The position numbers were made by a program, and so were the translations under genes. Under the pieces are notes generated by a model. It was not told where the DNA came from. It did no database searches and saw only the letters and a program-made list of their open reading frames with translations. Of a stretch of DNA of 64,000 nucleotides, positions 44,201-46,501 are shown one piece after another. This DNA is from Apostichopus japonicus (taxonomy: Eukaryota > Echinodermata > Holothuroidea > Aspidochirotida > Stichopodidae). The stretch's first letter is position 1. Every line of letters begins with the position of its first letter. The stretch lies in assembly GCF_037975245.1 (NCBI RefSeq), contig NC_092573.1:19753265-19817264 (forward strand), given 5' to 3'.

Positions 44201-46501
44201 GCTACAACTGATGTTTTCTCATGCAAGTCGAATCCTTCACTCAACACAATAAGTCCTCTAGAATAGGGTGTGACAGCTAGTTATAAGTCTTTAAATACTG
44301 AAAATAGAGCTTCGTACATCTTTGTACCTTGTGTAGCAGATAAGTTTGTGTCTCGCTGTTGTCATAGAAACATAATCATACCTTTGTTATATATTGCAGT
44401 GAAACTGATGAAGAATTCTCCGATGGAACATTGGTCAGTAGTGTTAAGCTTGTGGTGGTCTCTACAGCAATGCCAGTACGATAGATGTATGGAATTGGCA
44501 AACACGGTAAATACTTCTTCCCAAAGTTTATAGTCACTCTCTGAAATCTCTTGACAAAATGCGACGGTTTCGTTTAACAGTCTTCATTTAATACCCATAG
44601 GCTTGATTCTCTGTAAATGACTGGTGCTTGTTTTAGGTTAGTTGGGCAGTTACAGTATTAGTATTGTAAACTATCTTCGACATTTTTGTGAAGTTAAACT
44701 TGATAAACTGTACCGTAATCAAAGCAAAGAGAAATGACTTTATTCGTTTCTTTCACTGGCAGTACACAGAGTGGTATGACTATCCCAAACCTGTGGTGTC
44801 GGAGATTCAGATGATATCAGCCTTAGCAGAGACCCTAAAACTGAATCGTCGCTTTTGGGAACTGGAGAATCTGTCGAATGCCAAGCAGCTTATTTTGGAA
44901 GAACTGCAGTCGTGTGCCTCCTTACAAGTAAGTACATAATTAGCAGATTAACATCTTATTTGCATAATTTAGCTCTTGAATAATCCACAGGAGCTCAGCG
45001 ATTCCACCTGTGCTGAAATGGAAATGAAGATGATGGATTCTAGAGAAATGTAATCGCCTGTTATTTAAAAAAACGCAGGTGCTTAATTCCTCCTAATACT
45101 CTCTCTCATCTCCATCTTTGATGTATAGCAATATTATAATTATTCAAAACAAGATGCTCATTTTACAAACTTCAAGAATGGTCACTTTTTGTGCATCTAA
45201 GGACCACTATGCTTATTACTGTACATAGTTATAATTAAAATGCCTCAAAAGCTGCTAATATGGTTTCATGTTACATTTCTTACAGCTGTTGGGGTCTCTT
45301 TACGAACGTGGTAGATGTTTTGCCGCTGCAGAGCATTGCTACAGGCAAGCCTTGGTGAGGGCCGAGGGTAACCAGGCTCTCGTGCTCATGAAGATGTGTA
45401 AATTTGCATTAGACGCTGCAGCATCGGTTAGTAAAGTCCCTCGTCCCTTTAACTTATTTATTATTATTTCGCAAAATATTCCAATATATTCCTCTCCTGC
45501 TGTTAGACATCTCTGTTGTAGAGGTTCCGTCTCATGAACATGCAGAACATTGTGACGCAAATTGGAGCATAAAATATAGTTTTGAACAGATGTAAAAAAA
45601 AAATCCAAGATCTACAACACTGTTTACAATAGATATGGCTTGAATTGTTTAAACCCCTTAATCTGCAGTTGTGCTTGTTGTTCAATAATTTCATACATTA
45701 CCAACTGTGAGCACCAGTTTGGGCAAAAAGAGAGCCTCTGCATATCAAATACCACCACATGCTAATCCATTTGTAAAAGTTCTGTGAATAACTTTACATT
45801 GCATAACTTTGCAGTCAATATGCTCTTGTAATTTATTCCCATTTTCTCTTTCAGACATTGCCTGATAATAAAGAATGGATTTCATTGGCCAAAGAAGCAT
45901 TTCAAGAAGTTTACAAGACCAAATTGCAAAATCCAGTCTGTGTTGGTTTACTGCAGGGAACTATGAAGTTACTGGAAGGAAATGAAAGATAAGTGTTGTA
46001 TTTGAACTTCAGTAATAACATACGTAATAAAATACTGAAATTTTTAATTTTAAAGCTAATCAATCGATGTTAAATTCAATGCAACCAGTCGTGCTACTGT
46101 ATGTATCACACATTGGCTGACAATCCAGTCCATACGATGAGAATGAATTTGTGCCCATTTTGTTTCCCCATCCATTACGCAGGCCAAGAAGGGTTTCCAA
46201 ACCGTTTTGGACAGTCCGAATTCCTCAACCGTAGCAGCCTCCGTCGCACGTTATAATCTCATCAAACTTTTACGAAGCAAGGACAAACCTTCCGCAATGG
46301 TGAGAACATTAAGGGTCCTTTTTAATTCATACTCTCTGCTCCAATCGGATTGTTTGGCATGAACCGTATTAGTCGAAGCCCTGAACTCGGTGTACAGTCC
46401 AAAAAAACTTTTCTTTTCTATCCTTTCTTTAGAATATCTTGGAGGAAGCAAAGGAAGCCGGTGATCCAAACCTTCAGCATTTAATGAAATTAATCGACTG
46501 A
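10169..46501 (+). CDS. SKIC3: Superkiller complex protein 3 (SKI3/TTC37), complete coding region, 43 coding exons
   Basis: Tetratricopeptide scaffold of the cytoplasmic Ski complex (SKI2 helicase, SKI3, SKI8), which feeds RNA to the exosome for 3'-5' decay. Exons: 10169-10276, 10480-10623, 13090-13257, 13703-13831, 14163-14258, 14983-15091, 15917-16057, 16248-16349, 17020-17252, 17574-17689, 18399-18525, 19439-19518, 20418-20517, 20886-21010, 21393-21428, 22448-22532, 22921-22952, 23949-24049, 25391-25493, 26141-26233, 27968-28069, 28879-29008, 29936-30014, 30501-30562, 31674-31799, 32230-32304, 33245-33389, 33700-33793, 35530-35610, 37478-37605, 38051-38174, 38850-39024, 40105-40151, 40688-40760, 42274-42324, 42771-42888, 43495-43611, 44400-44506, 44763-44927, 45286-45426, 45855-45988, 46179-46299, 46433-46501. 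The total is 4692 bases, 1563 residues plus TGA. Human TTC37 has 1564, and order and motifs match throughout. The start is the ATG in ACCATGG. All introns are GT-AG except the one before exon 42. Confidence 0.95.
11477..12719. mobile_element. THAP-domain DNA transposon relic in SKIC3 intron 2
   Basis: A 31-base inverted repeat brackets this segment: 11477-11507 (starts GGTGACCATGTGACGTCAC, ends GTTTGTATACC) and 12689-12719, which reads on the minus strand GGTCACCGTGTGACGTCAAA and so on. About 27 of 31 positions agree. Between them lie a THAP-like ORF and an AATAAA near 12170. No target duplication is visible directly outside the repeats, so the real termini may lie further out. THAP domains occur in P-element and Kolobok-type transposases; which superfamily this is cannot be decided. 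Confidence 0.6.
11592..11837 (+). pseudogene. THAP zinc-finger domain fragment, probably a decayed transposase N-terminus
   Basis: From the ATG at 11592 the protein reads [15 protein letters not shown], then [11 protein letters not shown], then [10 protein letters not shown]. This is the first half of a C2CH THAP finger: CxxxxC pair, FxFP, basic patch, LWI tryptophan. The expected second half, a Cys-x-x-His pair, appears as FCEHY about 30 codons on, but in another frame (near 11800). Either a frameshift or a lost intron separates the halves. It lies on the sense strand of SKIC3 intron 2 and is not part of SKIC3. Confidence 0.65.
14983..20517 (+). CDS. SKIC3: SKIC3 coding exons 6-13 (residues 216-551), central TPR array
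   Basis: Successive exons supply helical repeats. Exon 7 has [19 protein letters not shown], exon 8 [15 protein letters not shown], exon 11 [19 protein letters not shown], exon 12 [18 protein letters not shown] and exon 13 [15 protein letters not shown]. The exon 11-13 segment lines up directly with the human stretch around YWFMGEETRKDKTKAL and [20 protein letters not shown]. Intron phases agree across every join. A hAT MITE sits in the intron between exons 10 and 11. Confidence 0.92.
17787..18205. mobile_element. Non-autonomous hAT-type MITE with 8-base target site duplication
   Basis: This 419-base element begins CAGGGGTTCCCTAACT and ends AGCTAGGGAAACCCTG; the ends are inverted copies at about 14 of 16 positions. 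It is flanked on both sides by the identical octamer CTTTACAG (17779-17786 and 18206-18213), the 8-base duplication expected of hAT transposons. No transposase frame is inside, so it must have been moved in trans. It sits in the SKIC3 intron between coding exons 10 and 11. Confidence 0.93.
20886..25493 (+). CDS. SKIC3: SKIC3 coding exons 14-19 (residues 552-711), TPRs
   Basis: Exon 14 holds [18 protein letters not shown] and exon 15 is a 36-base micro-exon ([13 protein letters not shown]). Exon 16 has [18 protein letters not shown]; its best in-frame acceptor is CTAG at 22446-22447, and its donor GTTTGA is weak. Exon 17 is only 32 bases. Exon 18 ends in NYVPALK, and its 3' end plus donor is tandemly amplified in the following intron. 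Exon 19 carries the conserved [13 protein letters not shown]-rich minisatellite, an inverted-repeat element and the exon-18-derived array lie in these introns. Confidence 0.92.
21721..22330. repeat. CA-rich tandem array, SKIC3 intron 15
   Basis: An array built on ACTGCACAATACACAC, with a higher-order unit of about 40 bases (CATAATACACACCACACTGC plus CACAATACACACTAGACACT) repeated around 21840-22080. It becomes irregular towards 22330 and ends about 120 bases before the acceptor of exon 16. ORFs that run through it on either strand are artefacts of the repeat. Confidence 0.92.
23490..23771. mobile_element. Inverted-repeat element with an internal telomere-like tract, SKIC3 intron 17
   Basis: A left arm starting GTGGCTATTCTTA (23503) and running through TTCCGGTTACGCATGCGCAG (to about 23585) is mirrored by a right arm ending in TAAAAATAGCCAC (23758). 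The sequence CCGGAAATTATTGTTACTCC also occurs twice directly (about 23650 and 23731). A TAACCCTAACCCTAAACCCT-type tract occupies 23621-23650. The nonamer TAATAGTAA is found on both outer sides (23490-23498 and 23763-23771) and may be a target duplication. This looks like a foldback or MITE-type element. Confidence 0.65.
24029..25070. repeat. Minisatellite made from the 3' end of SKIC3 exon 18 plus its splice donor
   Basis: About 27 units of 36-40 bases. The first unit is the end of coding exon 18 itself, TACGTTCCAGCTTTAAAAG followed by the donor GTATCAT and a C-rich stretch. The following copies read CTACACTATGTTCCAGC, TTTAAAAG|GTATCATT, CCCCCTC. Nearly all keep the AAAG|GTATCAT donor. Blocks of three units recur (around 24360-24475 and 24475-24590), showing higher-order duplication. 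Because the exon part is conserved with other animals (YVPALKG), the array is derived from the exon and not the reverse. Confidence 0.95.
26141..32304 (+). CDS. SKIC3: SKIC3 coding exons 20-26 (residues 712-934), TPRs
   Basis: Exon 21 reads RVNVPSSLL and ends [10 protein letters not shown], corresponding to the human SKVNVHVLG to LLHLGGR linker. Exon 22 has [11 protein letters not shown] and exon 24 [10 protein letters not shown]. Exon 25 is a textbook TPR, with [20 protein letters not shown] followed by [15 protein letters not shown]. Exon 26 ends [12 protein letters not shown] at a GTAAGA donor. The last 33 or so bases of exon 26 and that donor are repeated three more times downstream. Exon 22 has a weak GTTATT donor. 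Confidence 0.93.
27104..27235. repeat. Short tandem array (ACAAGTCACAT)n, SKIC3 intron 20
   Basis: About ten imperfect copies of an 11-base unit, CACATACAAGT, interrupted by CACACACTCACA and CACACATACACTC segments. The peptide ORFs through it ([13 protein letters not shown]) are repeat artefacts. Confidence 0.9.
32271..32640. repeat. Tandem array made from the 3' end of SKIC3 exon 26 plus its splice donor
   Basis: Four copies of a 95-118 base unit. Each contains the last 33 or so bases of exon 26 (ATTCCGTCATACCACCGAAC, then TAGCAACTCAC) followed by the donor GTAAGA, then a variable number of GGTACCTATACAT motifs. Copies start near 32271, 32391, 32486 and 32593. The first belongs to the real exon, whose DLFRHTTEL motif is conserved in SKI3. 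The three others are intronic decoys with intact GTAAGA donors. Confidence 0.95.
33245..40151 (+). CDS. SKIC3: SKIC3 coding exons 27-33 (residues 935-1198), TPRs
   Basis: Exon 27 encodes [16 protein letters not shown] and [10 protein letters not shown], both highly conserved in SKI3. Exon 28 has [13 protein letters not shown], exon 30 [15 protein letters not shown] and exon 31 [10 protein letters not shown] then QAKTMLFKS. Exon 32 has [17 protein letters not shown]. Exon 32 ends in an unusual GTCTGT donor. Introns here contain DR1-like repeats, a long palindrome, a GT-rich tract, a 147-base tandem repeat, a (TA)n tract and a tRNA-derived SINE. Confidence 0.92.
34790..35060. repeat. Diverged repeat with DR1-like motifs, SKIC3 intron 28
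   Basis: Three spaced copies of GTCAAAGGT-containing sequence: AAGTCAAAGGTCA at 34793-34805, GATGTCAAAGGTGAT near 34923, and AGGTCAAAGGTTG at 35043-35055. They are about 120 bases apart. The same motif heads the tandem repeat in intron 34, so the two are probably one repeat family. Confidence 0.5.
35939..35992. repeat. 54-base near-perfect palindrome, SKIC3 intron 29
   Basis: Two 27-base arms with no spacer, starting GGAATTCAGAAAAG and ending CTTTTCTGAATTCC, with the centre at ATATATAT. 26 of 27 pairs match. It can extrude as a cruciform or, in RNA, form a long hairpin. Confidence 0.95.
36015..36310. repeat. GT-rich microsatellite region, SKIC3 intron 29
   Basis: A (GT)n run at its start passes into irregular units such as GTGTGTGGTATG and ATATAAGTATGTG. 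The long minus-strand frames here (rich in Thr, His, Tyr, Pro) are translations of this repeat and not genes. Confidence 0.9.
36775..37375. repeat. Tandem repeat of about 147 bases, four copies, SKIC3 intron 29
   Basis: Each copy contains GAAACCTTACTGTTGAACTT, then TCAGAAATCTACTCCCTTTA, a T-run, TTTTTGTGATAAAATGTCAT and CCAGGAGGTCCAAAAGATTG. The TTTCAG in every unit resembles a splice acceptor, but the real acceptor of exon 30 is further on (37476-37477). Confidence 0.92.
37880..37994. repeat. (TA)n microsatellite, SKIC3 intron 30
   Basis: About 115 bases of almost pure TA dinucleotide, interrupted twice by ATAAATAT. It starts about 275 bases after exon 30 and ends about 55 bases before exon 31. 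Confidence 0.97.
39122..39424 (+). mobile_element. tRNA-derived SINE with LINE-like tail, SKIC3 intron 32
   Basis: The head resembles a tRNA, with an A-box-like TGGCCAATTGGCTAAGG and a B box GGTTCGATTC about 40 bases later (near 39177). The body is about 170 bases and the tail reads AAAGCGCTTTGAAACC, GTGCTATATAAAAATC, ending in AT-rich repeats. A second copy lies at 51595-51899 on the other strand. The tail resembles the end of the LINE at 58735-59070, the usual arrangement by which SINEs borrow LINE machinery. Confidence 0.88.
40688..46501 (+). CDS. SKIC3: SKIC3 coding exons 34-43 (residues 1199-1563), C-terminal TPRs
   Basis: Exon 34 begins [16 protein letters not shown]. Exon 36 contains [19 protein letters not shown] and RAVFLFP. 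Exon 38 has EHWSVVLSL. Exon 40 is a clear [23 protein letters not shown]. Exon 41 runs to KLLEGNE plus two bases and exon 42 begins one base before QAKKGFQTV; the joined residues ERQAKK align without a gap to the human protein. Exon 43 ends HLMKLID and TGA at 46499-46501. In yeast Ski3 the C-terminal TPRs hold Ski8 and the Ski2 core; I assume the same here by homology. Confidence 0.9.
41350..42070. repeat. Tandem repeat of about 140 bases with nuclear-receptor-like half sites, SKIC3 intron 34
   Basis: Four to five diverged units. Recurrent blocks are AGTACAAGAAGCCTATTG, GGAGGTCAAAGGTCCTTTGG, GGTCACCAGGGGTCAAATTG, TGAAAACCATGTAAACA and GGGAAGCTTGGACAGATCTC. The first unit has AGGTCA-A-AGGTCC at 41463-41475. 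Later copies degrade this to GGTCAATGGCC or AGGTCAATGGTC. Confidence 0.88.
42565..42624. mobile_element. 3'-end fragment of the same hAT MITE family, SKIC3 intron 35
   Basis: The sequence TCTGACATCCACAGGGGGT, then a short variable part, then GTTAGGGAAACCCTG matches the last 60 or so bases of the element at 17787-18205. No left end or target duplication is visible, so this is a truncated copy. Confidence 0.8.
45989..46178 (+). other. SKIC3: Predicted AT-AC intron between SKIC3 coding exons 41 and 42
   Basis: Exon 41 reads on as GAA AGA TAA, a stop, and has no usable GT donor. It instead shows AG|ATAAGT at 45987-45994. Upstream of exon 42 the sequence is TTTGTTTCCCCATCCATTAC|GCAGGCC. Splicing ATAAGT to ATTAC gives GAA AGG CAG GCC, keeps the frame to exon 43, and aligns gap-free with human SKI3. 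The pyrimidine tract and the ATAAGT start fit a U2-type AT-AC intron; no TCCTTAAC-like U12 branch site is seen. Using the neighbouring CAG acceptor (46181-46182) shifts the frame. If unspliced, the protein ends after residue 1501, and an AATAAA follows at 46026-46031. Confidence 0.75.

Follow-up and report, generated by a model that had tools for sequence, protein, structure and literature searches.

The window analysed here, a stretch of 64,000 nucleotides from the holothurian Apostichopus japonicus (contig NC_092573.1, positions 19,753,265 to 19,817,264), carries on its forward strand an ortholog of SKIC3 (TTC37, SKI3). The gene was rebuilt as 43 exons that total 4692 nt and encode 1563 amino acids up to a single terminal stop. 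Of its 42 introns, 41 have GT-AG ends in the model; the remaining one, intron 41, very probably bears the rare ends AT and AC in place of GT and AG. The features on which the argument turns are the following:

10169..46501, forward strand: SKIC3 coding span of the 43-exon model
45855..45988, forward strand: exon 41, which ends ...GAA AG in phase 2; its AG acceptor is ordinary and scores 12.0 (generic)
45989..46178, forward strand: intron 41, 190 nt, modelled with AT-AC ends, an ATAAGT donor and an ATTAC acceptor
45990..45992, forward strand: TAA that falls in frame if the intron is retained, ordinary for phase-2 introns
46026..46031, forward strand: AATAAA within intron 41, at chance density
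46155..46175, forward strand: pyrimidine-rich tract before the acceptor, with a pyrimidine fraction of 0.80 at -23 to -4
46179..46299, forward strand: exon 42 of the 43-exon model
46180..46182, forward strand: CAG lying 4 nt beyond the AC, a possible AG acceptor that would break the frame if paired with the ATAAGT donor
46433..46501, forward strand: exon 43 of the 43-exon model, with the true stop codon

The model was built without the exon list of the first-pass annotation, by an ab initio spliced dynamic-programming search followed by by-eye curation against human SKI3 alignments, and this independent rebuild reproduced the totals reported earlier (4692 bases, 1563 residues). The exon count in the initial, permissive search came to 90, 97 or 103 depending on the model, and the largest model contained one GC-AG intron and four AT-AC introns. 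A later search returned three AT-AC introns every time such ends were allowed; intron 41 was one of the AT-AC introns on each occasion. Human SKI3 was matched by two drafts that preceded the final 1563-residue protein, one of 1487 residues (7qdr_B, E 5.1e-224) and one covering the C-terminus (9g8o_B, E 6.4e-49). This near full-length match argues that the gene is the SKIC3/TTC37 ortholog. A Pfam TPR was found within the first 140 residues, and a Pfam scan of the last 154 residues returned no domain. The locus is single-copy in the assembly as judged by a 501-base query over exons 41-42, which matched its own locus only and revealed no processed copy among the 671.6 Mb and 35 contigs. A pattern search of prokaryotic contigs for relatives gave 99 matches, none of which was confirmed.

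With its flanks, intron 41 reads AAG|ATAAGTG ... CCCCATCCATTAC|GCAGGCC, the intron closing on CCATTAC. It is a phase-2 intron that splits an arginine codon (AG|G), and exon 42 opens as G CAG GCC at 46179. The sequence is as earlier described, an AT-AC intron at 45989-46178 with a stop codon formed at once on retention. Joining 45988 to 46183, through the CAG, produces a frameshift and an early stop. In the alignment with 9g8o_B (offset 4), human R1499 and E1500 flank the junction, and R1503 and L1505 follow shortly after it. The first-pass annotation had called the alignment with human SKI3 gap-free: the junction itself is ungapped and the spans are equal (95/95), but gaps occur a few residues upstream and further off.

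Canonical splice sites offer no comparable solution. Within 45 nt of the junction, a single GT-AG pair and a single GC-AG pair keep the frame open, at a cost of 19 and 24 residues, respectively. Extending the range to 133 nt yields 18 GT-AG and 12 GC-AG frame-open pairs, all 30 of which cost between 17 and 68 residues, so the earlier claim that no GT donor rescues exon 41 holds, every such pair dropping at least 17 residues. A gene finder barred from non-GT-AG sites joined 45935 to 46183, losing 19 residues through a donor with a generic score of 0.1. Protein homology disfavours the tested GT-AG deletions and the frameshifts, judging by human SKI3 alignment scores of 59 and 49 for the former and 30 for the latter, versus 74 for the AT-AC junction. 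Two further AT-AC pairs are open within 45 nt, at a loss of 20 and 8 residues, and the acceptor context of the latter scores -15.8. On sequence, no pair of a known class other than the AT-AC pair at intron 41 appears to keep both the frame and the full length.

The strongest evidence comes from the context of the splice sites, which was scored with the terminal two bases excluded and with the gene’s own 41 GT-AG introns as the reference. The donor of intron 41 ranks first of 42, at 8.41 versus a mean of 3.28 (sd 2.31), and its acceptor ranks 21 of 42. The summed context is 13.1 for AT-AC, compared with 4.0 for the best GA-AG pair, -3.2 for TA-AG and 0.5 for the best of three GT-AG pairs scored. 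An in-frame AT-AC pair with context scores as high or higher was found neither at any of the gene's 41 remaining introns, with windows of 6, 12, 30 and 45 nt, nor at any of 200,000 random junctions (window of 6 nt). The bare dinucleotides are weak evidence, and the site context is the strong evidence.

The U1 complement is matched at 8 of 11 donor positions, with +1 as the sole mismatch from -2 to +6, the donor has G at +5, and the pyrimidine tract, which the first-pass annotation called good, ranks 12 of 42. The best explanation is that intron 41 is a genuine, normally removed U2-type AT-AC (AT-AC class II) intron, a reading to which we assign a probability of about 0.83. We infer that the major spliceosome would remove it at these very bases, and efficiently. 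In the proposed mechanism, U1 would pair with AAG|AUAAGU from -2 to +6 at all positions but +1, and an ordinary branch site together with the pyrimidine tract would serve U2 and U2AF. The terminal bases, A at the start and C at the end, would then form in the second step the non-Watson-Crick contact that two Gs form in GT-AG introns; through this contact, the AC at 46178 would be preferred to the CAG 4 nt downstream, and the frame would be kept.

This arrangement has counterparts among known AT-AC introns. SCN4A intron 21, which has AT-AC ends, needs the major spliceosome, and G at +5 is common to the sodium-channel U2-type AT-AC introns (PMC2831892); SCN4A intron 21 and SCN5A intron 25 are described as AT-AC type II (PMC4712308), with splicing assigned to the major spliceosome. 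Intron 41 shares with these two the AT-AC ends, the U2-like donor and the G at +5; unlike them, it lies in SKIC3, and its class is read from sequence only. An Arabidopsis GFP reporter offers a second parallel: its U2-type AT-AC intron likewise has an AG 3' site a few bases from the AC, and the correct protein is made only when the AT-AC pair is spliced (PMC5473141). In that transgene, the AC is positioned 3 nt outside the AG and has a rival GT donor (PMC5473141), whereas in SKIC3 the AC precedes the CAG and there is no good GT donor to compete with. Intron 41 appears to fit the known U2-type AT-AC class and would be a fresh example of a rare one, which accounts for 0 to 0.07% of U2-type introns across 18 animal rows of a published survey (PMC7367187, Table 2). 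The cases named in the literature cited here are sodium-channel introns and the plant reporter, and SKIC3 is an unrelated gene. With AC and CAG only 4 nt apart and one choice in frame, the junction would put the first-base/last-base rule for the second splicing step to a natural test. For annotation, a gene model confined to GT-AG introns would cost the SKIC3 protein 19 residues or truncate it.

Several observations weigh against the U2-type AT-AC assignment. The class is rare, at ~0.01% of human U2-type introns (PMC7367187, Table 2), and the support for AT-AC splicing at this junction comes entirely from the DNA letters. Permissive gene finding also proposed AT-AC ends for further introns of the gene (three in the initial search, two in the later one); by eye, these were swapped for GT-AG pairs that fit human SKI3 better. 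A bare in-frame AT-AC pair is present within 6 nt at 20.7% of random junctions, and 3 of the remaining 41 introns have one too. Homology to human SKI3 does not discriminate among AT-AC, GA-AG and TA-AG junctions (alignment scores of 74, 74 and 73), so that the choice among the three rests on splice-site context. By that measure, an AT-AT pair 3 nt upstream edges AT-AC, at 13.7 versus 13.1, and we know of no U2 class with AT-AT ends. Finally, the lone yTnAy branch candidate in the last 90 nt sits 59 nt from the intron end and is followed by two AGs.

Among the alternatives, the one that fares best is compatible with AT-AC splicing. The first-pass annotation proposed a switch between full-length and truncated SKI3, in which slow removal of intron 41 would yield a short protein or, as we would add, tune the SKI3 level via nonsense-mediated decay (NMD); we consider such regulation improbable, and the switch as proposed is unsupported. 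One point for some regulation comes from the Arabidopsis reporter, where the U2-type AT-AC intron is spliced in only ~17.5% of wild-type transcripts and in more than 50% in SMU1 and CWC16a mutants (PMC5473141), but there a GT-AG intron competes. The arithmetic of the proposal agrees with the model: on retention, translation would stop after residue 1501 and leave out the last 62 of the 1563. The stop, however, is ordinary. Any NTAA donor in phase 2 places a TAA at intron positions 2-4, and of the gene’s 13 phase-2 introns 10, among them intron 41, stop within two codons. The AATAAA, whose first base at 46026 follows the end of the TAA by 34 nt, is equally unremarkable. The forward strand of the window holds 61 copies (0.95 per kb), and one of the 42 introns, intron 41 itself, has a copy in its first 45 nt, about as this density predicts.

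The fate of a retained intron also speaks against the switch. Under the 50-55 nt rule, stops further upstream of the last exon junction trigger NMD. The retention stop lies 307 nt before that junction and the stop created by an AT-AG misplice 65 nt before it, so both are predicted NMD targets; a transcript retaining intron 41 is predicted to undergo decay and not to yield a stable short protein, unless the AATAAA were used. Retention would, in addition, remove the counterpart of part of human TPR39, including the positions of R1503 and L1505, which are two of the three residues in the hotspot of THES-1 disease (PMC8860381). Because the lost residues cover this region, accurate removal of intron 41 probably matters, and a useful truncated form of SKI3 is unlikely.

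A further alternative, for which we see little room, is that splicing employs the CAG at 46182 with another non-canonical donor, either as GA-AG (45983 to 46183, losing three residues) or as TA-AG (45989 to 46183, losing one). Both junctions are in frame and align with human SKI3 about as well as the AT-AC junction, and GA-AG introns are known in animals, being frequent in Eurytemora and Oikopleura (PMC7072748). Their context sums, given above, fall far below that of the AT-AC pair, and a donor read in the U1-like register A|GATAAGT, as discussed in PMC7072748, would start the intron at 45988 and be out of frame with the CAG; as a GA donor, this register was rejected. TA-AG is not known as a class.

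It is less probable still that the donor is truly GTAAGT, miscalled in the assembly or restored by A-to-I editing, and that the intron is an ordinary GT-AG one. One A-to-G change would indeed create a near-perfect donor, and editing of AT-AG introns is known (PMC4176328). A GTAAGT donor would, however, still be in phase 2 and leave the CAG at 46182 out of frame, and the sole in-frame AG within 45 nt for that donor, at 46214, costs 12 residues and has a context score of -3.1. Since the donor stays in phase 2 and the frame asks for the AC, a single-base error or edit would not suffice, and both intron ends would need to be wrong together. That the two ends are unusual at once is what the AT-AC rule demands. 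Single-change solutions were set aside on this ground, as none gives an in-frame GT-AG intron without the 12-residue loss. Folding does not point to an editing hairpin, as the region is no more stable than its shuffled versions (z +1.55), 193 of 200 of which equal or exceed it in stability.

Removal by the minor spliceosome, as a U12-type AT-AC intron, is very improbable. AT-AC introns are mostly U12-type (PMC7072748), and the minor spliceosome may be available in this genome, in which a U12 small nuclear RNA gene is present (115.9 bits versus a gathering score of 53). Beyond the AT-AC ends and this gene, the likeness to U12-type introns fades. The U12 consensuses are RTATCCTT for the donor and TTCCTTRAC for the branch site. 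Intron 41 matches the former at 4 of 8 positions, the median of the 42 introns, and its best match to the latter is 6 of 9, located 7 nt from the intron end (4-8 in the other introns). Both scores lie inside the spread of the gene’s other introns, and the pyrimidine tract and the G at +5 likewise point away from one. As noted in the first-pass annotation, no U12-like branch site stands out, and its U2-type assignment is supported by the donor’s first rank and the background-level U12 donor match. With neither donor nor branch signal found, the U12-type candidate was rejected, and the minor spliceosome does not appear to be indicated for intron 41. The idea that the protein truly ends at the TAA after 1501 residues, exons 42-43 being remnants or seldom used, finds some appeal in a stop directly after exon 41 and is no more credible, because both exons keep an open frame, are bounded by good ordinary sites scoring 8.8 (generic donor) and 10.7 (generic acceptor), and align with the human C-terminus, and the lost stretch holds the TPR39 counterpart with two THES disease residues (PMC8860381).

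If intron 41 is indeed a U2-type AT-AC intron, its history can be considered. A rare route has been proposed in which a U12-type AT-AC intron becomes a U2-type AT-AC intron and is then trapped (PMC2831892). A more speculative scenario, which we hold to be doubtful as a whole, is that intron 41 derives from a GT-AG intron whose two ends changed as a pair, and not from a U12-type ancestor, that it persists because no base but A at +1 steers the spliceosome to the in-frame AC and away from the out-of-frame CAG 4 nt on, and that slower splicing sets the SKI3 level via NMD. Were it true, the SKI mRNA-surveillance pathway would be dosed by a rare splice class.

Elsewhere in SKIC3, two exon-intron boundaries have been duplicated in tandem. 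The array at 24029-25066, covering the end of exon 18 and intron 18, consists of ~27 copies of a 39-bp unit that joins the exon 18 end to that exon's 5' splice site; allowing up to 5 mismatches, the 22-nt exon 18 site is present in 17 ungapped copies, and many units read CAG|CTTTAAAAG|GTATCAT, in which 9 nt separate a CAG from a GT. A second boundary array, like that of exon 18, occupies 32272-32647 (exon 26 end and intron 26), where the exon end with its GTAAGA donor recurs in three further copies (0, 0 and 1 mismatches). Donor-site copies of this kind occur in 2 of the 42 introns, and in the remainder of the window the 42 donor 22-mers have a single match between them. Minisatellites at exon-intron boundaries, termed ‘mirages’, have been described in amphioxus genes (PMC3087553).

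Other elements were noted in passing. Intron 2 contains an open frame at 11490-11834 with a partial THAP domain (PF05485, E 2.1e-6), perhaps a transposon or retrogene remnant. On the reverse strand, positions 51821-51893 give a weak tRNA-like Rfam match (30.4 bits, cut-off 29), with no ARAGORN call. A 149-bp tandem repeat of 3.5 copies lies in intron 29 (36780-37293), and intron 30 holds a run of 56 TA units (37882-37994).

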